NCBI RefSeq assembly: GCF_944385615.1
Contig: NZ_CALWXV010000016.1
Span: forward strand, 1-47,653
Reading direction: 5' to 3'
Length of the DNA stretch: 47,653 nucleotides
Origin: an uncultured Flavonifractor sp.
Lineage (GTDB): Bacteria > Bacillota > Clostridia > Oscillospirales > Oscillospiraceae
A program made the position numbers and the translations under genes. Of this stretch, positions 451-11,335 are shown piece by piece. Below the pieces are notes generated by a model. It made no database searches. It was not told the DNA's origin and saw nothing but the letters and a program-made list of their open reading frames with translations. Position 1 is the stretch's first letter. Every line of letters begins with the position of its first letter.

Positions 451-3417
451 TCAATTCTGAGACGGCGTTTGATAAGGCTTTCCTTCCTTATTGTAAGTCA
501 AATTAAACACCAGATCTGACAACCATTTTTTGAAATCGGGATTATCCTGAAACTGCTTGAACAGTTCCATATTGTCAGCCATGATGCTAAAAATAACCTG
601 CTGCAAAGCACGCTCACTTTCAATACGAGCATTTTGCTTATCGGAGTTTTTCATAGCATTTTGATAGTGCTCATCCTTGGAGACCATAGCCGGAATCTCA
701 AGAATTTGACGGCGGACATTATCCGCATCATTCCAATCTATGTTGCCAAACATATCATTAAATGTTGTCAAGATGGCAGAGAGCAAATCCATCTCTGGCT
801 CTTTTTTGGCTCCAATCTGACCCGTCGGCACAGGGGCCACTTCTGCATCTTCATCCTGAAGCACAAGAGAAATACATTCCTTAGCCTCTAAGCGATAGCT
901 ATCCAGATCAATCGCCTCTAAAATCCCCTGTGTAAAATCATCCTCTGGCGGAGACGGCAGTTTCGGGATAAGCAGATTCAAGAAAATCGAGAGCTTTTCC
1001 CAATCAGGATTTCCATAAGGGAGAATAGCCCCCAGGAATCCATATGTACGCACAAAGGATTTGGCCGCACTTTTAAATTTGATTTGTCCGTCGACATCCA
1101 GTTCTTTGTATGCAGCAGCACAAGCATCCAGAATAGGATCAAGTCGATCCCGCTCGGCACCGTCGAGGTAGAGATTGACCAGTTTCTCTACATGATCCTG
1201 TGTGAATACCTGATACTCCTCCATCGCGGCAATCAGGTCATAGAGTTTATTGGGATCAGTTTCATCCGACAGCAATGTGGTGCGGTAGTACCGAGAAAAA
1301 GCCTCTACAATTGTGGCTGAATCATTGGCGAAGTCCAAAACAAAAGTATCGTGCTTCTGCGGATGAGCGCGATTGAGCCGAGAGAGCGTCTGCACGGCCT
1401 TTATGTCAGAAAGTGGCTTATCCACATACATGGTGTGCAACAGCGGTTCATCATAGCCTGTTTGGAACATATCCGCCACAATCAAGAAACGATAGGGATC
1501 TTGCTTAAATGTCTTTTGGATTTTGTTATCTGGGAATCCATTCAGCCCCGCAGAAGTCAATGCAGGCTGCTGACCGTGAAATTCCTTTTCGCCAGAAAAC
1601 GCGATGATTGCTTCATAAGGACTATGCCGAGCAGCTAAGCATCTATTGACCGCATAGTAGTATTCAATGCAACGCTCAATATTGCTGGTGATAATCATTG
1701 CTCTAGCTTTTCCACCAATTTTACCCTTGGCAATCACTTGTTCGTGAAAATGGCTGACCATCATTTCAGCTTTTTGCTCAACTGTAAAAGACTGATTTTC
1801 TACAAAGGCACGAAGCTTCTTTTGAGCTTTTTTCTTATCATAGAGTGGATCGTCCTCCACGGTCTTTTTTAAGCGATAAAAGCTGTCGATAGGTGTATAG
1901 TATTTGAGTACATCCAGGATAAAGCCCTCTTGGATTGCCTGTTTCATGGTATAGACATGGAACGGGCGATGCTTGATTTTATCTCCCTCTTGGTACGGGG
2001 TTCCGAAGGTCTCGAGGGTTTTATTCTTAGGTGTGGCAGTGAAGGCGAAGTAGCTGGCGTTTTTCAGCAGCTTGCGTCCTTCACACATGGCATTGATTTT
2101 ATCCTCATTATCCTGTTCTTCCTCAGAAGCCAACCCAGACAGGGCAAGGTTCATCTTTGCCGAGGTGCGCCCACTCTGACCGGAATGGGCCTCGTCGATA
2201 ATGATTGCGAAATGGTTATCCTTGTGCTGTGTGCCAATGTCAGAAAGGACAAATGGGAATTTCTCCACGGTGGTAATGATAATCCGTTTCCCAGCCTGAA
2301 TTGCCTTTCTCAAATCACTGGAATGTTCTGCCCACGCCACGGTGCTGCTCACCTGCATAAACTGCTTGATGTTATCCCGAATCTGCTTGTCCAGAACTAC
2401 TCGGTCTGTAACGACGATAACACTGTCCACAAGCAGCTCACCATCGTCCGATTCCAGTCCTATGAGCTGATGGGCCAGCCAAGTGATTGAGTTGGATTTT
2501 CCGGAACCGGCACTGTGCTGAATCAGATACCGCTGCCCAATACCGTTTGCCTTCACATCTGCTAGCAACCGCTCTACCACATCCAGCTGGTGGTATCGAG
2601 GAAACACCTGCGTATATGTTTTCTTTTTGGTGTCCGGATCTTCCTTTTCCACCACTTGGGCGTAGTTTTCAATAATGCGGGCCAGCTTCTGTTTGGTCAG
2701 AATGTCCTTCCAGAGATAATCGGTCATCATGCCGTTTGGATTGGGCGGATTCCCCGCTCCATCCTTATATCCCTTGTTGAACGGGAGGAACCAGCTGGCT
2801 TTTCCGTCCAGCTTGGTGCAGAACTTGATCTGCGCATCGTCAACCGCAAAATGAACCATGCAGCGTTTGAACTGAAACAGCAGTTCTTTGGAATCGCGGT
2901 CATGCTGGTACTGATAAACGGCATCGTCCACATTCTGCTTGGTGAGCTGGTTTTTCAGCTCAAATGTAATGACCGGCAGACCGTTGATAAACACGCATAG
3001 ATCCAAGGCCAGCCTTGTGGCGTCCTTGGAGTACATCAGCTGGCGGGTTACACTAAAAATATTCTGCTCGAACATCTTACGGGCGGCCACATTTTTGGCG
3101 GTGGGGGTCAAGTAGAACATGACCAAATCCACCGGATACACCTTGATTCCCTTGCGCAGGACATCTATGATTCCACGTTTGGCAATTTCACCTTGCAGAC
3201 GATTGAGAAACTGCTGCTTTTTTTGCTCACTTTTGAACACGCCCAGCTTGTCCATCGCATCGCCCTGTGTGGACTGCAAAAAGCGAAACAGGCGTGTTTC
3301 GTCAATCGCATAGTCGCGGTTATAGTCGGCATTGGTACCCTGCTCATATCCGTTGTGGTTGACCAGCCAATCCACGATTAAAGTTTCAATGCCAGATTCT
3401 TTTGTGTTGGTTGGCAT
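451..3417 (-). CDS. hsdR: Type I restriction enzyme, R subunit (HsdR)
   Basis: A 988-residue protein, normal length for HsdR, the motor and nuclease subunit that with HsdM2HsdS translocates and cuts unmodified DNA. The N-terminal nuclease domain shows the conserved core around residues 138-156, ending in FELKN. The superfamily 2 motor follows: Walker A HSAGSGKS at about 301-308, DEAH at 408-411, TATPK at about 460-464. The helicase second half and a helical C-terminus follow. It is the last gene of the operon; its ATG follows the kinase stop by 18 nt, with GAGGTGA as ribosome-binding site. No frameshift or missing catalytic motif is apparent. Base composition is clearly more AT-rich than the core genes to the right. 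Confidence 0.95.
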   Translation of the reverse strand: MPTNTKESGIETLIVDWLVNHNGYEQGTNADYNRDYAIDETRLFRFLQSTQGDAMDKLGVFKSEQKKQQFLNRLQGEIAKRGIIDVLRKGIKVYPVDLVMFYLTPTAKNVAARKMFEQNIFSVTRQLMYSKDATRLALDLCVFINGLPVITFELKNQLTKQNVDDAVYQYQHDRDSKELLFQFKRCMVHFAVDDAQIKFCTKLDGKASWFLPFNKGYKDGAGNPPNPNGMMTDYLWKDILTKQKLARIIENYAQVVEKEDPDTKKKTYTQVFPRYHQLDVVERLLADVKANGIGQRYLIQHSAGSGKSNSITWLAHQLIGLESDDGELLVDSVIVVTDRVVLDKQIRDNIKQFMQVSSTVAWAEHSSDLRKAIQAGKRIIITTVEKFPFVLSDIGTQHKDNHFAIIIDEAHSGQSGRTSAKMNLALSGLASEEEQDNEDKINAMCEGRKLLKNASYFAFTATPKNKTLETFGTPYQEGDKIKHRPFHVYTMKQAIQEGFILDVLKYYTPIDSFYRLKKTVEDDPLYDKKKAQKKLRAFVENQSFTVEQKAEMMVSHFHEQVIAKGKIGGKARAMIITSNIERCIEYYYAVNRCLAARHSPYEAIIAFSGEKEFHGQQPALTSAGLNGFPDNKIQKTFKQDPYRFLIVADMFQTGYDEPLLHTMYVDKPLSDIKAVQTLSRLNRAHPQKHDTFVLDFANDSATIVEAFSRYYRTTLLSDETDPNKLYDLIAAMEEYQVFTQDHVEKLVNLYLDGAERDRLDPILDACAAAYKELDVDGQIKFKSAAKSFVRTYGFLGAILPYGNPDWEKLSIFLNLLIPKLPSPPEDDFTQGILEAIDLDSYRLEAKECISLVLQDEDAEVAPVPTGQIGAKKEPEMDLLSAILTTFNDMFGNIDWNDADNVRRQILEIPAMVSKDEHYQNAMKNSDKQNARIESERALQQVIFSIMADNMELFKQFQDNPDFKKWLSDLVFNLTYNKEGKPYQTPSQN

Positions 3418-3435: not shown

Positions 3436-4614
3436 TTAGAATGGTAATTCATCATCAGGAATTGCGACTGCAATTGTAGACAGTTTTGATATGATATTTT
3501 GCAGTATAAGTTCCTTCGTTTCCATGCTGTAAGACTCATACCACGTTAAAAAGGCTTTTACCGCTTCGCAGGGAATACCAACACTATTGTCATACCTGTA
3601 CGAACACGAAACCACACTGCTAATAACATCTGCATTCTTTTGGATGTACTCTTCAAAAATATTGCTTTGTAATGCCTTTTGTAATTTCTCGCTAAATGAT
3701 TCCGGCGAAGTATTAAATTGGCGTTCTGATGTGTACTGTGTCAAAGATTTGTATAAGTTATCAACAAAGGAATGATAGATCTTCTTATCTTCCTCTGAGA
3801 TATTGAGTGCCACAAACCCACGCTTGCTGATAGCTTTTCGGATTTCTTCAAAGCTGGAGTATCTATCCTCCGGTTTTTTCTGCATCATCTTATCGAGAAT
3901 GCTTTGATAAGAAAAATTCATCTCATCAGGATGCTCCGCTTCTCTCATCAGGCGATTAAGTAGCTCCGCCAAATAAAACATATCTGTCAGAGATGTATAT
4001 TCTTTGTCGTAATATTCCTGCGGTAATGTATCAGCATTGCGCCTGTTGATTTGCGAACGCAAACTATCATCAGCTTGTGTCGACTCAACAAGTTTTCCAA
4101 TTCCAAAATCAATTACTTTAACCGTACCTGACTTATCAATCATGATATTTCCTTCGCGGATGTCACGATGAATGACATGGTGTTTTTCCATATACGCAAA
4201 GGCATCGATCAACTGAACAAAAATATTATCAGGCGTCGGGTCATCGCACAAAATCGAATCAAGTTCTTCATATTCACTTAGATATTTATCGATCGTTTTT
4301 CCGTCTATAAATTCCATCAAAATATATCCTCTATAAATATTCTCATAAGCATAGTAGTTATAGATGCGGACGATATTTCTGTGATTAAGTTTATAGAGTA
4401 TTTTGATTTCATCAAGGAAGTTCTTGTAAAATTGCTCCCTTATTTCGTCATATTCTGGCTCATACTTTTTTGCAACAAAGAGTTCGTCAATATACGGATC
4501 TTTCAAAACAACGGTTTTGCCAAATGATCCGCCGCCCAGATCATTATTAACCATGATATAGTCTTTTTGTTTGACAAACTCAATAATATCTCCATTTTGC
4601 TTCTCAATGGCCAT
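3436..4614 (-). CDS. Ser/Thr protein kinase embedded in the type I RM operon
   Basis: A 392-residue Hanks-type kinase with an intact catalytic set: glycine loop LGGGSFG (26-32), ATP-anchoring Lys in VAKK (~49), Glu of helix C (~69), HRDIREGN (149-156; Asp151 catalytic, Asn156 metal; the usual Lys of HRDxKxxN is Arg), and DFG (169-171). No transmembrane helix or PASTA repeat is seen, so it is cytoplasmic and unlike PknB/PrkC. The C-terminal ~125 residues are helical, match no domain I recognise, and end in an acidic DDELPF. Its ATG overlaps the hsdS stop (TAATG), so translation is coupled to HsdS. Kinases act in other phage defences (Pgl/BREX type 2, Stk2). A role here in regulating restriction or in abortive infection is inference. 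Confidence 0.9.
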   Translation of the reverse strand: MAIEKQNGDIIEFVKQKDYIMVNNDLGGGSFGKTVVLKDPYIDELFVAKKYEPEYDEIREQFYKNFLDEIKILYKLNHRNIVRIYNYYAYENIYRGYILMEFIDGKTIDKYLSEYEELDSILCDDPTPDNIFVQLIDAFAYMEKHHVIHRDIREGNIMIDKSGTVKVIDFGIGKLVESTQADDSLRSQINRRNADTLPQEYYDKEYTSLTDMFYLAELLNRLMREAEHPDEMNFSYQSILDKMMQKKPEDRYSSFEEIRKAISKRGFVALNISEEDKKIYHSFVDNLYKSLTQYTSERQFNTSPESFSEKLQKALQSNIFEEYIQKNADVISSVVSCSYRYDNSVGIPCEAVKAFLTWYESYSMETKELILQNIISKLSTIAVAIPDDELPF

Positions 4615-5954
4615 TATTCCACCTCCATCTCGTCCTCTGGTTCTTCGGCTTCATCTGCCAGTTCCTCGACTAACTCAAAATCCGGCACATCAATGCTCCG
4701 CACATCAATCTGGCCTGTGACAACATCAGAAATCAGACGAGTACGAAGTTCATGCAACAGCTCAATTTCTCTGTTTAAGGCGTTCTCAACTGCCGAAGCC
4801 TTTTTAGCCTGAGCGTCGATATATTGCATGATTTCTTTTTGTTCCTCGATGGGCGGTACAGGAAGATAGATCGTATAGAAATCTTCTGTATAGAGCCGCC
4901 AAAATCCTTCGATAATACCACGCACTCGAACCCGCAGTTCACGTCGACACAAGGCGCTTTTCAACACCATTTCTCCAAAGGACGGAATTATTCTTTCTGT
5001 ATTTGGTATCAAAACAGTGTAGTCCGGACTGATTACTCCGAATTGTGGCGCTAATGCAAATACTCCCAGATGGGCCTTCAAACGATTTAACACCAGATCA
5101 TCTTGATAGCACAGCTTTCCGCCAGCATATGATTCCGACAGCATACGGCGCTCATCCAGTTGGGAGTCAGGAACCAAGCCGTACTTCTGGCTCATTGACA
5201 GGTGCGTTTCCATACCTTCTTTTGACCGCTCATCTCTTTCCCTAAACAGGTATTTGCAGCGAATAGCCGACCAGTGGCTGGGGATATCGCCAATCCAAGC
5301 GATATGACTGTCTTTGCAGCCAACATCACTATGTACGCCCTTTGTGATTACTTCGCAAATCAATTTTTGTTGCTGTTCTCTCAACACTTGAATCTGTTGT
5401 TTTTTTGCGGCAATTAACCGATTGATTTTAGAAGTCTGCCATTCCAGATATCGTACAATCTGATCTTGTTCCTTATGAGATGGGCATGGAACATACATAT
5501 TTCTAATATCTTTGTACCCAATCGACTGACGAACGCCTCCTCCCATGCCATAAAAAACTTTTCGGATATCGTACGCATGAAGTAAGTAGTGTAGATATGC
5601 TGAATTGCTTAATGGGCAAAGGCAAGTATATGCAGATGTTATAATCCCAGTTTCTTTTGCTAACCCTGTTCTCAAACTCGTATGATCATTTTGTAGGTCT
5701 GTTAATCTTAGTATAATATTTCCTTTACGGATGACCTGGTAATTGTTATAGTTTTCTGGCACCAATCCGGCGCTAAGATTTTTTTTGCGTATTATATTTC
5801 CATAACTCAGTGACATTACCGCAAAATCTATATTTTCCGGCTTCCTATCCTTTTGCTCTTTGGCAACTTGAGAAAGAAATTTCCATTCCCATTTTTGTGG
5901 AATTTGAGGCAACCAAAATAGCCCCGTGTCTTTATATACCTCGTATCTTCTCAT
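4614..5954 (-). CDS. hsdS: Type I restriction-modification specificity subunit (HsdS)
   Basis: A 446-residue protein with two half-repeats. Each has a target-recognition domain introduced by a WxxxIPxxW-like motif (about 14-22 and 220-228) and closed by a coiled-coil spacer (about 162-203 and 380-425). The two recognition domains differ in sequence, so the target is expected to be a bipartite asymmetric site. It guides HsdM2 and HsdR to DNA. The last ~20 residues are extremely acidic and extend beyond the usual second coiled coil. The start ATG overlaps the hsdM stop by 4 nt (ATGA), and its stop overlaps the kinase ATG. The specificity itself cannot be read from sequence. Confidence 0.93.
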   Translation of the reverse strand: MRRYEVYKDTGLFWLPQIPQKWEWKFLSQVAKEQKDRKPENIDFAVMSLSYGNIIRKKNLSAGLVPENYNNYQVIRKGNIILRLTDLQNDHTSLRTGLAKETGIITSAYTCLCPLSNSAYLHYLLHAYDIRKVFYGMGGGVRQSIGYKDIRNMYVPCPSHKEQDQIVRYLEWQTSKINRLIAAKKQQIQVLREQQQKLICEVITKGVHSDVGCKDSHIAWIGDIPSHWSAIRCKYLFRERDERSKEGMETHLSMSQKYGLVPDSQLDERRMLSESYAGGKLCYQDDLVLNRLKAHLGVFALAPQFGVISPDYTVLIPNTERIIPSFGEMVLKSALCRRELRVRVRGIIEGFWRLYTEDFYTIYLPVPPIEEQKEIMQYIDAQAKKASAVENALNREIELLHELRTRLISDVVTGQIDVRSIDVPDFELVEELADEAEEPEDEMEVE

Positions 5955-7960
5955 TGCTCAACTCCTCCAAGAATCTCCGCCAGCATACCATCAGTTTCAG
6001 ATTCCAACTTTTTGAGGTCGTTTACGATTTCCTCCATGCTACGCAACTGCACCGGCTGATAGAAATACTTGGTAAAGGACAGCTCATAACCAATCTGGGT
6101 TTTCTTTTCGTCTACCCAGGCATCCGGCGCATATGGCAACACCTCGTTTTTCATAAAGGCATCGATCCCGCCCTCATAAGTAAAGGGAATCATCTCTGTG
6201 TCCCGCAGGTCGGTATCAGGTTCTCCGTCAACGGGCTGCGCCATGGGATCTTTCTCCGTGATAAAGGGACGAATCTTTTTCAATGCGGCCGCTTTTAGCT
6301 TTGTGGCCTTGGAAAAAACCGTCCAATCATCGGTAGGGGTTCCTGCCGGGACAGAGCGGATTGCTTTCTGTACTTGCTCCAACTCCTCCGCCTTTTTGAA
6401 AGTGTCGGCAGGAATCGTTCTGTCAGGGTACACCCGCAGGCGAAGAGGGCGCTCGACAGTAATGGACCAATATCCGAATTCCCGGTTGTCAAATACACGG
6501 CTGACGGAGCTTTCTTCCATCTCCATGAAAATCCGCATGATTTCATCCCGGAGCTCCGGTGTCAGCTCGCAGTTTTTCTCGCCCATGTTTTTACGCAGCG
6601 GGGATTTCATAGCCGTGGCATCGATCAGCTGAATCTTTCCTTTGCGGCGTTCTTCTTTTTTGTTGCTCAGCACCCAGATATAAGTACCAATCCCTGTGTT
6701 ATAAAACATTTTTTCCGGCAGTGCAATTACCGCTTCCACCAGGTCACTCTCAATGAGGTAACGGCGGGCATTGCTTTCGCCGGAACCTGCATCACCGGTA
6801 AACAGAGAGGAACCGTTGTGAACTTCTGCAATGCGGCTGCCCAGAGGGGTATCCGTCTTCATCTTCGCCGCATTATTCAGCAGGAACAGCAACTGGCCAT
6901 CACTGACACGGGGGATCATGGCAAGCTGAGTGCCATCCTCCAGGTAGGCATTGAAACGGCTGTCCAGGATGTCTTTTTTGCCGCCCATCTTTTCTGCGTC
7001 CACTTTCCATGTCTTTCCGTAAGGAGGATTGGACAGCATAAAATCAAACTGTCTGGTGGCGTTACCATCCATCGACAGCGTAGAGCCATAGCTGATATGC
7101 TCTGCTTGTTTTCCGTCACCCTTCAGCAGCATATCCGCTTTGCAGATGGCATAGGTCTCCGGCTGCACTTCTTGGCCAAACAAGTGAATCGAAACCTGCT
7201 TGCCGGTTTCTTCCGCCAGTCCCAGCAGGCGATCCTGCGCCACGGTCAGCATACCACCCGTACCGCAGGCTCCATCATAGCAGGAATAGGTGGCATCCTT
7301 GATCTGGTCCTTGATAGGAACAAAAATCAAATCTGCCATCAGTTCCACCACATCACGAGGTGTGTAGTGTTCACCAGCTTCTTCGTTGTTGGCCTCGTTA
7401 AACTTGCGAATCAGTTCTTCAAAGATAGTGCCCATGGCGTGGTTATCCAGTCCCGGCAGCTTGATCTCGGTTTTGCTATCATCGGTATAAACCGGATTAG
7501 GGCTGAGGTTGATTTCCTTCGACACAAATTTTTCAATGACTGCGCCCAGAATATCGGCTTCGATCATTGTGTCAATTTGGTTTCGGAACTGGAACTTCTG
7601 CAAAATCTCCTGTACATTTGGAGAAAAACCGTCCAAGTATGCGGTGAAATCGGCTTTGAGCTGCTGTTGCTTGGCGCGGGCCGTCAGATCACGCAGACGG
7701 AAGGGAGAAGTGTTGCAAAACGCCTGTCCAGCAGCTACACACAGTGCCTCCGTTTGATTGGTAATCCCCGCAGCATCCAGTTTGGCTTTCATGTCCATAA
7801 CCTGCTGTTTCGTATCCTCCAAAACAGCATCCAGACGGCGAATCACCGTCATAGGCAAAATCACATCACGATACTTGCCACGCACATATACGTCGCGCAG
7901 ACAGTCATCAGCAATGCCCCAAATAAAGCTCACAATCTGGTTGTGAATCTGATTATCCAT
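5951..7960 (-). CDS. hsdM: Type I restriction-modification DNA methyltransferase (HsdM)
   Basis: A 669-residue N6-adenine methyltransferase subunit. An N-terminal helical HsdM domain (about 1-150) precedes the catalytic domain, with HYTPRDVV near 198-205, the SAM-binding DGACGTGG (229-236) and the catalytic NPPYG (311-315). An extended C-terminal region follows, making it longer than the typical ~500-residue HsdM. It methylates the site chosen by HsdS to protect host DNA. First structural gene of the operon, 22 nt after the XRE regulator, with a weak AAAGTAGG ribosome-binding site. All catalytic motifs look intact. Confidence 0.95.
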   Translation of the reverse strand: MDNQIHNQIVSFIWGIADDCLRDVYVRGKYRDVILPMTVIRRLDAVLEDTKQQVMDMKAKLDAAGITNQTEALCVAAGQAFCNTSPFRLRDLTARAKQQQLKADFTAYLDGFSPNVQEILQKFQFRNQIDTMIEADILGAVIEKFVSKEINLSPNPVYTDDSKTEIKLPGLDNHAMGTIFEELIRKFNEANNEEAGEHYTPRDVVELMADLIFVPIKDQIKDATYSCYDGACGTGGMLTVAQDRLLGLAEETGKQVSIHLFGQEVQPETYAICKADMLLKGDGKQAEHISYGSTLSMDGNATRQFDFMLSNPPYGKTWKVDAEKMGGKKDILDSRFNAYLEDGTQLAMIPRVSDGQLLFLLNNAAKMKTDTPLGSRIAEVHNGSSLFTGDAGSGESNARRYLIESDLVEAVIALPEKMFYNTGIGTYIWVLSNKKEERRKGKIQLIDATAMKSPLRKNMGEKNCELTPELRDEIMRIFMEMEESSVSRVFDNREFGYWSITVERPLRLRVYPDRTIPADTFKKAEELEQVQKAIRSVPAGTPTDDWTVFSKATKLKAAALKKIRPFITEKDPMAQPVDGEPDTDLRDTEMIPFTYEGGIDAFMKNEVLPYAPDAWVDEKKTQIGYELSFTKYFYQPVQLRSMEEIVNDLKKLESETDGMLAEILGGVEQ

Positions 7961-7982
7961 ATTAGCAACCTACTTTCTTTGT

Positions 7983-8675
7983 TTAGTTCTTCCTAAATTC
8001 ATCATATAGTCGCTTCGGCAATTTTCGCAGATAAGAGTTCAGTACGCCAATAGCATTTTCCATGTGGACTTGGGAAATTACATCATTCTCAACCGGAAAG
8101 TAACCATATTTGTTCATCAACAGGCGGGCTTCTTCCAATTTTTCAGCATTTCTCTCACGCCGTTTTGTTCCAAAAGCATCACTGCTCAGTGCGTACAGAT
8201 AGTACGAAAATAAGCTCTGCTTGATCTTCTCCATCACAATTTCAAACTCCATACTGGTGAGAAAATCATTTAGAATTGCCGTATCCTGCTGTGCATATAT
8301 TTTCGGATCTTCCTCACTGCTAGAATCTTCCTTGCATCGAATCAATTCTTCAATCGCCCCGTCGCACAGACCCAACTGCTCAGAAATATTGTGGTATTCC
8401 TGTTTGCGAGAGTTAGACAGTCCCAGCAGATACTCCACCGACACATCGTAAAAATCCGCAAAGGCGACCAGATACTCGATGCTCATGCTGCGGGTACGGC
8501 CATACAGAGGATGGACAGGATCGTTGATTTCATAATTTTTGAGATTTGTATGGCTGATGTTGACGCCACGCTCTGCAAGCTGCTTGGAAAGCTGTTCAAA
8601 GGACAGCTTTTTTTCTTTACGAAGATCTTCCAGCCGCTCTTTGGTCAGCGCCATCCGTGCTTCGTCATACAGCAT
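7983..8675 (-). CDS. XRE-family regulator heading the RM operon
   Basis: A 230-residue protein. Residues about 9-75 form a Cro/C1-type helix-turn-helix (LEDLRKEKKLSFEQLSKQLAERG followed by the recognition segment), then a helical C-terminal part resembling clostridial phage and element repressors. The ATG at 8675 has an AGGAGG 8 nt upstream. As first gene of the hsdM-hsdS-kinase-hsdR transcript it probably acts as the control protein, binding the palindromic GTTTA sites in the divergent region 8676-8853. Such timing control is known for RM control proteins. That this protein does it is inferred from position. Confidence 0.85.
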   Translation of the reverse strand: MLYDEARMALTKERLEDLRKEKKLSFEQLSKQLAERGVNISHTNLKNYEINDPVHPLYGRTRSMSIEYLVAFADFYDVSVEYLLGLSNSRKQEYHNISEQLGLCDGAIEELIRCKEDSSSEEDPKIYAQQDTAILNDFLTSMEFEIVMEKIKQSLFSYYLYALSSDAFGTKRRERNAEKLEEARLLMNKYGYFPVENDVISQVHMENAIGVLNSYLRKLPKRLYDEFRKN

Positions 8676-8853
8676 GAGTTTATCCTCCTATCCGTTTATA
8701 AACTATAATTTACAAACGTGCGTTTTCTGAAACCAAAATAATTTGTGGTTGATATACCGCATTCAGGCTTTTTCTGCGGTACAATTCAATTAGAGTTTAC
8801 GGTTTACGTTTATTATAAACCATAAATCTCACAAAATCAATTCTCTACATGAA
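8676..8853. promoter_or_regulatory. Divergent control region with GTTTA palindromes
   Basis: This gap separates the leftward RM operon from the rightward element genes. It contains a perfect 10-bp palindrome GTTTATAAAC (8694-8703) in the leader of the regulator gene, a dyad GTTTA-TTA-TAAAC (8808-8820), and tandem GTTTAC half-sites just before the latter (8795-8807). The symmetry and placement on both sides of the gap fit operators for the adjacent XRE protein. AT-rich -10-like sequences exist on both strands, but no promoter is clear enough to fix. Confidence 0.5.
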
Positions 8854-8867
8854 ATGGAGGAAAGCGC

Positions 8868-8993
8868 ATGGAAAAATATCTGCATATGCTGCAACCACAA
8901 AGCTGGGAGGAAAAACAATTTGTTGATTCAAATGACACCCAAGCAAAGGAGAAAAGCCAATGCGCTGATTCGAAAATCTTGCTGCAATTATGA
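8868..8993 (+). CDS. 41-residue ORF overlapping the Cys-rich gene
   Basis: An ATG at 8868 has an excellent ribosome-binding site (GGAGG at 8856-8860, 7 nt spacing) and opens a 41-codon frame ending at TGA 8991-8993, overlapping the Cys-rich protein in another frame. The peptide starts MEKYLHMLQPQSW, is hydrophilic and matches no family I know. It could be a short element protein, a translational leader coupling to the next gene, or chance. The strong start signal is the only argument for it. Confidence 0.35.
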   Translation: MEKYLHMLQPQSWEEKQFVDSNDTQAKEKSQCADSKILLQL

Positions 8994-9279
8994 CGGCGGC
9001 AATTGTATTGCGCTGGATGATGGCGAGCCTTGTGTCTGTGTACAGAGCATCTCTTATTCTCTGTGCTGCACCTGGTTCCGGGATTGGGTTCTGCCAGGTG
9101 CTCCGGCTTTACAAGCTGAAATCACCAGTCCCAAAGGATTGAAGCGATGCGCAGAATGTGGTACGCCGTTTCTGGCAAAATCCAACCGTGCCAAGTATTG
9201 TCCCGATTGTGCCCGCAAGGTACACCGCCGTCAGAAAACAGCAAGTGACAGGAAACGGAGGTTGAATACGGACAAATAG
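8932..9279 (+). CDS. Cysteine-rich VLP-domain protein (mobile-element gene)
   Basis: About 115 residues from ATG 8932 (MTPKQRRKANAL). The N-terminal half is the Cys-rich VLP domain, with CC, C, CVC and CC clusters and a W-R-D-W-V-L-P-like segment. The C-terminal half is a zinc-ribbon-like CxxC...CxxC (CAEC...CPDC) followed by a basic tail. This family is common next to RepA genes on clostridial plasmids and integrative elements; its function is not established. The frame is open back to 8854, and a TTG at 8920 has GGGAGG 9 nt upstream, so the start could be 8920. The C-terminal features suggest nucleic-acid binding, which is inference. Confidence 0.75.
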   Translation: MTPKQRRKANALIRKSCCNYDGGNCIALDDGEPCVCVQSISYSLCCTWFRDWVLPGAPALQAEITSPKGLKRCAECGTPFLAKSNRAKYCPDCARKVHRRQKTASDRKRRLNTDK

Positions 9280-9395
9280 AGCTTCTAAAAGCCGGATATA
9301 TGCTCGGTTTCCAGCCTGGCAATCATGGAGATGAATAGCAATACCCCTTATCGCTCAGAAATCACGTTCTAATTGTCCGCATGGAGGTACCTGTC

Positions 9396-9794
9396 ATGGC
9401 TACAAAACCCTTTTACATTCATCAGAAGCCACCGGCCCAAAGTTTTATACGACTGCCCAATTTTCTGTTTGAGGCACCAAGTTTTTGCTCCTTGTCAAGC
9501 GAAGCCAAACTGTTGTATGCGATGATCCTGCGTCGAACGGATTTGTCCCGCAAAAACGGATGGGCCGACGATTATGGCAAAATTTATCTGTATTACCCCA
9601 TCAACGAGGTGTGCGAGCTGCTGCACTGTGGCCGTCAAAAAGCGGTGGACACGCTGCGGGAGCTGCAATATGCAGATCTTGTATCCATCAAAAAACAGGG
9701 GTGTGGAAAACCCAACCGTATCTACCCAAAACACTATGAAGCGGTTTCGAACACCGACTTCAAGAAATCCGGTTACGGAACGCCGGAAGTCTGA
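9396..9794 (+). CDS. Truncated replication initiator RepA (N-terminal domain only)
   Basis: A 132-residue frame from ATG 9396, chosen because GGAGGT lies 7 nt upstream. The sequence (FIRLPNFLFEAPSF, SSEAKLLYAMILRRTDLSRKNGW, YYPINEVCELLHCGRQKAVDTL) is the RepA_N-type winged-helix domain of plasmid and integrative-element initiators. Full-length relatives are usually about 250 residues or more. A TGA at 9792 ends this one just after the DNA-binding domain. The protein is therefore probably inactive for replication, though the DNA-binding domain may still fold. Confidence 0.8.
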   Translation: MATKPFYIHQKPPAQSFIRLPNFLFEAPSFCSLSSEAKLLYAMILRRTDLSRKNGWADDYGKIYLYYPINEVCELLHCGRQKAVDTLRELQYADLVSIKKQGCGKPNRIYPKHYEAVSNTDFKKSGYGTPEV

Positions 9795-10702: not shown

Positions 10703-10815
10703 AAAAGTGTTCGCAGAACACGCAGCCCCAAAATGAGTTCTGTGTTCAGTGGGGTTTGGGGCATAGTACCCAACAAGAGGAAAAGTGAGTGTGTGTTAAT
10801 ACTCGCATTGCTTGC
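10703..10815 (+). repeat. Right flanking repeat arm (inverted copy of 266-389)
   Basis: 113 bp matching the minus strand of 266-389. It runs from GTGTTCGCAGAACAC through GGGGTTTGGGG and CAACAAGAGG to GTGAGTGTGTGTTAATACTCGC and ATTGCTTGC. The GTGTTC/GAACAC hairpin with AAAA before it forms a weak inward-facing terminator on the minus strand. From 10816 to 10868 nothing is recognised. Confidence 0.7.
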
Positions 10816-10987: not shown

Positions 10988-11335
10988 TGGTGGAGGCGGG
11001 GGGAGTCGAACCCCCGTCCGAAAACGCTTCCTCGGGAACTTCTCCGGGCGCAGACGGTCATTTACATTCCCTCACCCTGGCGTAGGCCGTCAAACTACAA
11101 GGCTCGGTAGCTTCATTGTTCATGGTGCGCTCAAAGCTTTGCGCACACACGTGCACCACTCGACGACGCCCCATCCCGGCTCGTGGTCCTTCCGGGCGGG
11201 ACGGCCGCTAATTAAGCAGCGGCGAGAACGACGTTATCGTTGTTCTTTAATTTATAAGTTGCCCGTTTTTAGGATGTCAGGCACATCCGCCCGCTATTCC
11301 CGCCTCTACGTCCCCGTCGAAACCAGTACGCCCCC
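10988..11335 (-). ncRNA. ssrA: tmRNA (transfer-messenger RNA)
   Basis: About 348 nt, with G1 at 11335 and an encoded 3' CCA ending at 10988. The 5' GGGGGCG pairs with 3' CGCCUCC (one G-U) to form the acceptor stem, with discriminator A then CCA. The tRNA-like 3' part contains GGTTCGACTCC. The tag frame ends at TAA (11212-11214) and reads NNDNVVLAAA after a Lys codon (11245-11247), which suits a clostridial tag with a hydrophobic AAA end recognised by ClpXP. It rescues stalled ribosomes together with SmpB, encoded just upstream. The gene's 3' end abuts the accessory island. Confidence 0.95.

Follow-up and report, generated by a model that had tools for sequence, protein, structure and literature searches.

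A protein kinase with a C-terminal tip like that of single-stranded DNA-binding protein inside a type I restriction operon: a candidate defence kinase

The operon and its embedded kinase

The stretch of DNA analysed here (the window, 47,653 nucleotides of contig NZ_CALWXV010000016.1 from an uncultured Flavonifractor sp.) carries a type I restriction-modification (RM) operon in which a gene for a Ser/Thr-type protein kinase sits between hsdS and hsdR. The kinase ends in a short tip resembling the C-terminal tail of single-stranded DNA-binding protein (SSB), which is its most informative feature and was absent from the first-pass annotation of this DNA. The features concerned are the following:

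451..3417, minus strand: hsdR, type I restriction and translocase subunit, 988 amino acids (Pfam HSDR_N, SWI2_SNF2, T1R_D3-like)
3436..4614, minus strand: Ser/Thr-type protein kinase, 392 amino acids (Pfam Pkinase, 108.7 bits; cut-off 31.7)
3439..3456, minus strand: SSB-like tip DDELPF, kinase residues 387-392 (sequence comparison)
3475..3795, minus strand: C-terminal domain of the kinase, about residues 274-380, conserved across homologues and helical in a low-confidence model
4614..5954, minus strand: hsdS, specificity subunit, 446 amino acids (Pfam Methylase_S in two stretches; PADLOC Specificity_I, 281 bits)
5951..7960, minus strand: hsdM, type I N6-adenine methyltransferase subunit, 669 amino acids (Pfam N6_Mtase 179.8 bits, HsdM_N 89.2 bits)
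7983..8675, minus strand: XRE-type helix-turn-helix (HTH) regulator, first gene of the operon, 230 amino acids (open reading frame and profile scans)

The order XRE-hsdM-hsdS-kinase-hsdR, running on one strand from 8675 down to 451, is the one given in the first-pass annotation, except that hsdR, which it described, falls outside the span of 3436-8675 that it assigned to the set. Matches above the Pfam cut-offs to N6_Mtase, HsdM_N, Methylase_S, HSDR_N and T1R_D3-like identify a type I hsdMSR operon, and HsdM reached 827.5 bits against MTase_I in PADLOC; the curated NCBIfam cut-offs were missed by hsdR (TIGR00348, 217 against 284.6) and by hsdM (TIGR00497, 97.7 against 242.8). The XRE protein gave only weak HTH_19/HTH_31 matches under the Pfam cut-off, and an NCBIfam RstR-like match that was also under its cut-off. 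Direct reading of the junctions bore out both the overlap of the hsdS stop with the kinase start (...GGAGGTGGAATAATGG), in which the A of TAATG is common to both genes, and the spacing of 18 nt between the kinase stop and the start of hsdR. A Shine-Dalgarno-like GGAGGTGG lies just 5' of the kinase start, and GAGGTGA precedes the hsdR ATG; hsdM and hsdS overlap by 4 nt and the XRE gene ends 22 nt before hsdM.

The kinase belongs to the Pkinase superfamily by its Gly-loop, VAIK Lys, helix-C Glu, HRD and DFG motifs, with residues K49, E69, H149-R150-D151, N156 and D169-F170-G171 invariant in 10/10 homologues. Ser/Thr kinases usually have HRDxK in the catalytic loop; here the loop reads HRDIR (window 4156-4170), with an Arg (R153) in the place of the Lys in all ten homologues. 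Consequently, the earlier statement that every catalytic residue is present is correct for the core and not for this position, whereas its claim that there is no membrane helix agrees with a maximum 19-residue Kyte-Doolittle mean of 1.23. The C-terminal region, described earlier as an unrecognised helical domain of ~125 residues, measures ~118 residues and indeed falls in no known family: no convincing match was obtained against Pfam in scans of 10 members (best single-member E 0.0012) or against PDB sequences (best E 0.71), its helicity coming from the low-confidence model.

The SSB-like tip and the SSB of the host

The window's kinase terminates in IPDDELPF. Ten distinct kinases from 11 homologue loci were analysed, the nearly identical copy at locus L021 not being counted apart, and all ten end at the extreme C-terminus in [DE]-[LIVY]-P-F, the P and F being two of the nine invariant columns of the C-terminal region. 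By sequence, this is a tip of the SSB-Ct type (acidic-hydrophobic-Pro-Phe at the C-terminal end), although no SSB domain (OB-fold) was found among the Pfam matches of the kinase, which is therefore not an SSB protein. SSB proteins use a C-terminal hexapeptide (DDDIPF in E. coli) to contact partners, among them primase and PriA, and a basic pocket reads the Phe carboxylate and the acidic residues (PMC5872125; papers given by PMC number are cited throughout from excerpts). RecG, RecO and RecJ are likewise described, again in excerpts, as binding SSB-Ct. The SSB tail is an address that recruits many replication and repair proteins. Among the papers listed in searches of the open-licence PubMed Central (PMC) literature, none was seen on an SSB-tipped kinase.

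The rarity of such an ending was examined in two ways. The window's genome, which is 89.55% complete, contains nine DNA matches to GANNTNCCNTTYTRR ([DE]-[FLIMV]-P-F-TRR, a pattern without Tyr at position -3), of which two read TGG and three end no open reading frame (ORF) of at least 40 amino acids; the remaining four end the kinase and three SSBs. In the fetched loci, 10 of 331 distinct ORFs of at least 100 amino acids end in [DE]-[LIVMYF]-P-F and all ten are kinases, in a control set where some ORFs may not be genes and where the rule of keeping the longer of two overlapping ORFs removed SSB genes in some loci.

The tips were then compared with those of the housekeeping SSB, taken as the copy adjoining rpsF and/or rpsR (neighbours judged by eye from translations), in 7 of the 11 host genomes, that is all except the hosts of L021, L022, L024 and L025. 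A search against the PDB confirmed the identity of the SSB gene as SSB. The kinase and SSB tips are, respectively, DDELPF and DGELPF both in the window's own genome (G000) and in G684, DDDLPF and EDDLPF in G212, DDDLPF and DDDLPF in G1079, EPEIPF and DEDIPF in G926, DVEVPF and DIDVPF in G1163, and EPDYPF and DDGYPF in G321. Position -3 of the kinase is thus the same as in the housekeeping SSB in 7/7 genomes (L, L, L, L, I, V, Y), with P = 24/5040 = 0.0048 in a post hoc permutation test.

The housekeeping SSB of G321 (L093, 1498-1959) has the uncommon tip GYPF, and YPF is also found in its kinase. Two more SSBs of the same genome, located in seemingly mobile elements, end in NDLPF and NDMPL, and a phage-like SSB of G1079 ends in DDDIPW. 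Two proteins were left out of the comparison as non-ordinary SSBs, namely C33 of G000 (56.8 bits, ending GVEC) and C7 of G212 (64.3 bits, ending NEEQ).

The codons of the tip differ between kinase and ssb in 7/7 pairs, so that the likeness lies at the amino-acid level and not in a recent copy of the end of ssb. Recent gene conversion is ruled out by these differences, which leave room for an older one. Shared ancestry of the kinases offers no ready explanation of the match either, because I, V and Y at -3 are found on end branches that lie apart in the kinase tree, and because the kinases of G684 and of the window fall in different clades; relatives at 63-70% identity (L022, L023 and L026) have L, I and Y at this position.

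A terminal Phe can also serve within the same molecule. In AGC kinases, a C-terminal hydrophobic motif docks in the N-lobe of the kinase, and a Phe tail acting in cis is known in PKA-like kinases, so that the tail could be an intramolecular element of this kind whose likeness to SSB arose by chance. With a mean column entropy of 1.17, the kinase part is better conserved than the C-terminal part (1.67), which would fit such an element. This explanation is nevertheless considered very improbable, since the tail has the complete acidic-hydrophobic-Pro-Phe signature of SSB, the homologues have linkers of differing length and sequence ahead of the tip, and an internal contact would not explain why residue -3 tracks the housekeeping SSB of the host.

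A rare kinase family and its genomic settings

Full-length matches including the C-terminal domain were counted as members of the family. When one genome per species was scanned, five loci with the whole protein emerged (L021-L025): L021, on a Gemmiger contig, has the same hsdS-kinase-hsdR arrangement as the window with 97.6% nucleotide identity over 4.9 kb, and the kinases of L022-L025 are 54-63% identical to the window's protein across the alignment. With the window's own genome included in each count, members were present in 3/391 genomes of the class (G000, G321, G212), 3/394 of the order (G000, G321, G684) and 4/398 of the phylum (G000, G926, G1079, G1163), G926 being the genome of L023 (its locus L033 is contained in L023). 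Two further searches, of 59 and 43 genomes, gave nothing beyond each centre genome, and a third gave G212 and G321 again with no new member. Pairwise identity among the ten distinct kinases is 32-70%. Generic kinase matches, obtained in 57/60 genomes at E 1e-10, were not taken as family, since among those listed all but the window's own gene stop by query residue 302 and most stop before residue 190; G092 and G265 were dropped for the same reason (positions 17-270 and 17-274). Among viral contigs, 376 stretches matched a pattern but included no relative, and HsdR patterns gave no match there; plasmids gave no kinase relative at 1e-20, and the 14 phage records recovered (22.6-33.1% identity) never cover 80% of the kinase query. 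The two deep clades of the kinase tree cut across host kinship: one contains the window's kinase together with the kinases of Syntrophomonas and G321, the other that of G684, a genome from the same order as the window. The kinase is placed in a family of soluble kinases that is rare and portable, has been met so far in Bacillota, and most likely acts in defence.

The settings of the homologues are diverse. L025 has two D12 adenine methyltransferases and an AlwI-type endonuclease, with the kinase 30 nt downstream, and in G321 (L036) a bSEFIR gene precedes the kinase on the same strand by 67 nt. In L023, the kinase is preceded by a PDC-S06/AAA_13 gene, then a short ORF and an ORF judged by eye to be transposase-like, and a truncated-looking hsdM starts 0.8 kb past the kinase; L040 has an Eco57I/MmeI-like methylase ~4.5 kb upstream of the kinase, the two being separated by three ORFs, of which two look IS21-like by eye. 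No defence gene was recognised beside the kinase in L022, L024, L037, L038 and L039, where some neighbours of the first four were domain-scanned and the remaining ones, with those of L039, were judged by eye. The search for hsdM-hsdS-kinase-hsdR neighbourhoods that had been proposed earlier yielded a second copy, in Gemmiger, and the order is otherwise not among the 11 homologue loci. Being confined to two loci of 97.6% identity, the hsdS-kinase-hsdR arrangement appears as one horizontally moving version and not as a widely conserved order.

The gap between hsdS and hsdR was examined in eight hsdR relatives, four from the 13 other genomes matched (the top three by similarity plus another at 38% identity) and four from 750 plasmid records. 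Nothing lies in the gap in five of them (G650, G044 and the Niallia, Sphaerotilus and Serratia plasmids). In the other three it is filled: in G595 (L074, 5564-10716) by CBASS genes (CD-NTase, Cap15) that have CHAT and DUF6119 genes as neighbours, in a Meiothermus plasmid (L077, 5390-8998) by DarT, macro-domain, AAA_21 and DUF4276 genes, and in G618 by a 252-residue ORF of unknown kind. A HamA-type (Hachiman) gene was also observed directly 3' of hsdR in G650 and G044, the two most similar genomic relatives (L072, 2543-6232, with a helicase gene next; L073, 1687-2616). The use of this gap as a cargo slot is not new, as accessory genes embedded in type I operons are already documented with PrrC in EcoprrI (PMC3874165, PMC12707154), with DarTG2 in this same gap of the RRDM island (PMC12255303), and with TgvAB and one further case (PMC11411939). 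The kinase is likewise an accessory gene embedded in a type I operon, located in the S-R gap, absent from related operons and found elsewhere. No paper on a kinase in this slot was seen among the open-licence PMC papers listed in the searches.

These comparisons bear on the earlier assertion that the kinase belongs to the operon and was not inserted later. Its co-directional and translationally coupled position agrees with the first half. The second half is unsupported: S and R are joined directly in the close hsdR relatives G650, G044 and the Niallia plasmid, the GC content of the kinase is 0.366 (third codon positions 0.384) against 0.501 (0.576) for hsdM and 0.466 (0.534) for hsdR, with hsdS intermediate at 0.424 (0.403), and homologues are found alone or next to other defence systems. 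Because homologues sit elsewhere, the slot is empty in relatives and the base composition differs, we conclude from sequence that the kinase is portable cargo and not a type I subunit; the contexts of the homologues and the empty slots rule out an integral subunit, and the kinase is accordingly predicted not to be needed for type I restriction. It could instead regulate the enzyme, phosphorylating HsdS or HsdR to switch restriction on or off or to alleviate it, the tip only bringing it to repair sites where restriction must ease. The tight coupling inside the operon and the post-translational regulation of type I enzymes by ClpXP (PMC12255303) speak for such a regulator, which is however unlikely in view of homologues that accompany type II RM (AlwI), stand beside bSEFIR or stand alone with no adjoining hsdR, of close hsdMSR relatives without kinase, and of the deviating base composition.

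Two further features lie outside the five genes:

8812..8840, minus strand: best promoter-like site, TTGATT-17-TATAAT, upstream of the XRE gene (consensus match only)
10988..11335, minus strand: tmRNA gene (ssrA), adjoining the low-GC island that holds the operon (Rfam RF00023, 159.2 bits)

Between 200 and 9000, promoter-like sites (17 against 15.0 expected) and terminator-like matches (12 against 8.7) were near chance, and the sole minus-strand terminator-like match (3284-3301) lies inside hsdR, which is consistent with a single operon beginning at the XRE gene. Two copies of TTATAAACYATAA upstream of this gene (8696-8708 and 8813-8825) are possible operators by consensus matching only. The island has a GC content of ~0.37-0.51 per kb, against 0.63 for 12000-47653, and also holds a Cys_rich_VLP gene (8854-9279) and a RepA_N gene (9381-9794); together with the adjacent ssrA, this is suggestive of an integrative element. 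An imperfect inverted repeat (266-389 and 10703-10815; 77% over 124 columns) lies near both ends of the island, one copy downstream of hsdR and the other beside ssrA. In the Gemmiger contig, hsdR is followed by an HTH-like and a serine-recombinase-like gene (L021, 4779-6694; by eye), and the window's contig ends within the corresponding stretch.

Possible role of the kinase and comparison with known systems

Taken together, the tip, its match to the host and the mobility of the gene suggest a defence kinase, carried as cargo in a type I operon, that would dock onto SSB-partner proteins as SSB does and stop infected cells when this hub is disturbed; we give this proposal somewhat better than even confidence. 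The tip would dock the kinase into the SSB-Ct pockets of proteins that serve replication and repair in host or phage (e.g. PriA, RecO, RecJ, RecG or primase), thereby placing it at the sites where SSB-coated DNA is processed. Disturbance of the hub by phage replication, by restriction breaks or by phage takeover would switch the kinase on, and the activated kinase would phosphorylate hub proteins or a general target, so that replication or growth stops as a second line of defence. SSB or single-stranded DNA (ssDNA)-protein complexes activate several defence systems (AbpAB, Retron-Eco8, Hachiman, ShosTA, Nhi and Hna; PMC10732053), which makes the SSB hub a plausible cue for the kinase. The kinase would be made together with the type I operon under one XRE regulator, much like PrrC or DarTG2, and could plausibly serve as a back-up or guard; since both HsdR cuts and phage replication would create the relevant DNA, it would be a natural back-up to restriction, although this is the least certain step of the mechanism. 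The broader proposal is of a new family of defence kinases that targets the SSB interactome through a copy of the SSB tail, evolving to match the SSB of each host and passed between unrelated defence systems, for which the chances appear evenly balanced.

Several points weigh against these proposals. The test at position -3 was devised after the pattern had been seen, on seven genomes of which four have the common L; replacing the housekeeping SSB of G321 by its LPF paralogue lowers the match to 6/7 (P = 0.024), and the match at position -4 (5/7) is not significant (P = 0.29). The AlphaFold2 model of the whole kinase, built on six alignment rows, is too poor (mean pLDDT 42) to show the tip as accessible or to serve for a fold search, and the branching inside the two deep clades of the kinase tree is mostly unresolved (2/7 inner branches starred). 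The trigger and the substrate are guesses, and docking, phosphorylation and phage defence are inferred from sequence. A defence gene stands directly beside the kinase in 4/11 loci (two of them being one shared locus), of three kinds, and within a few kb in 2/11 more; the absence of any recognised one in 5/11 leaves a non-defence role open. These five loci, and a tip matched to the host SSB, would also suit a decoy that blocks the partners of the SSB hub, or a housekeeping kinase that phosphorylates SSB or its partners in normal growth, neither with a role in defence. Both are quite improbable: a family of rare and patchy occurrence, whose clades cut across host kinship and whose members repeatedly adjoin defence genes, looks more like cargo than like housekeeping.

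If the proposed defence role is true, a mobile kinase with a host-matched SSB address would represent a new link between phosphorylation and the state of replicating DNA. In that case, type I operons would be interchangeable carriers of second-line defences.

Among known systems, MAD6 (MADS), PglW (BREX type 2), PD-T4-6 and Stk2 have a Ser/Thr-type kinase domain in common with the window's kinase. The top PADLOC match of the kinase is MAD6 (102.6 bits, residues 22-184), and PD-T4-6 reaches up to 101.9 bits with its best stretches in the kinase core; no model for Stk2 was identified in these scans. For MAD6 and PglW too, the best matches lie in the core and the scores remain far under the NCBIfam cut-offs (72.8 bits against 460 and 17.8 bits against 990), so that the kinase belongs neither to MADS nor to BREX type 2; the seven window proteins searched in PADLOC gave only weak mad2, mad5 and mad6 matches, which rank as generic methyltransferase, HsdS and kinase similarity. 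It is not a PASTA kinase (PknB/Stk1) either, with 96 bits against 450, no membrane helix and no PASTA match.

In its architecture, the operon resembles the RRDM island of enteropathogenic E. coli (RptR-hsdM-hsdS-DarTG2-hsdR-M48; PMC12255303), with a small regulator first and cargo in the hsdS-hsdR gap. There, the cargo is the DarT/DarG toxin-antitoxin in place of a kinase, and RptR is a 9-kDa alpha-helical repressor unlike the window's XRE protein; the excerpt makes no mention of an SSB-like tip. PrrC of EcoprrI is likewise an accessory gene inside a type I operon and a latent second-line effector, but it is a tRNA anticodon nuclease held by the type I enzyme, with no kinase or SSB tip mentioned in the excerpts (PMC3874165, PMC12707154). 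The V. cholerae TgvAB genes are also independent genes embedded in a type I RM operon, and encode a GmrSD-like type IV restriction system instead of a kinase (PMC11411939). The tip itself finds its counterpart in SSB-Ct (DDDIPF in E. coli; PMC5872125), whose acidic-hydrophobic-Pro-Phe ending is present in a kinase that has no SSB domain. Finally, AbpAB, Retron-Eco8, Hachiman, ShosTA, Nhi and Hna respond to phage SSB or to DNA-protein complexes (PMC10732053); unlike systems of the AbpAB/Retron-Eco8 type, the window's kinase carries the SSB tip itself, and like them it would react to the state of SSB on ssDNA.

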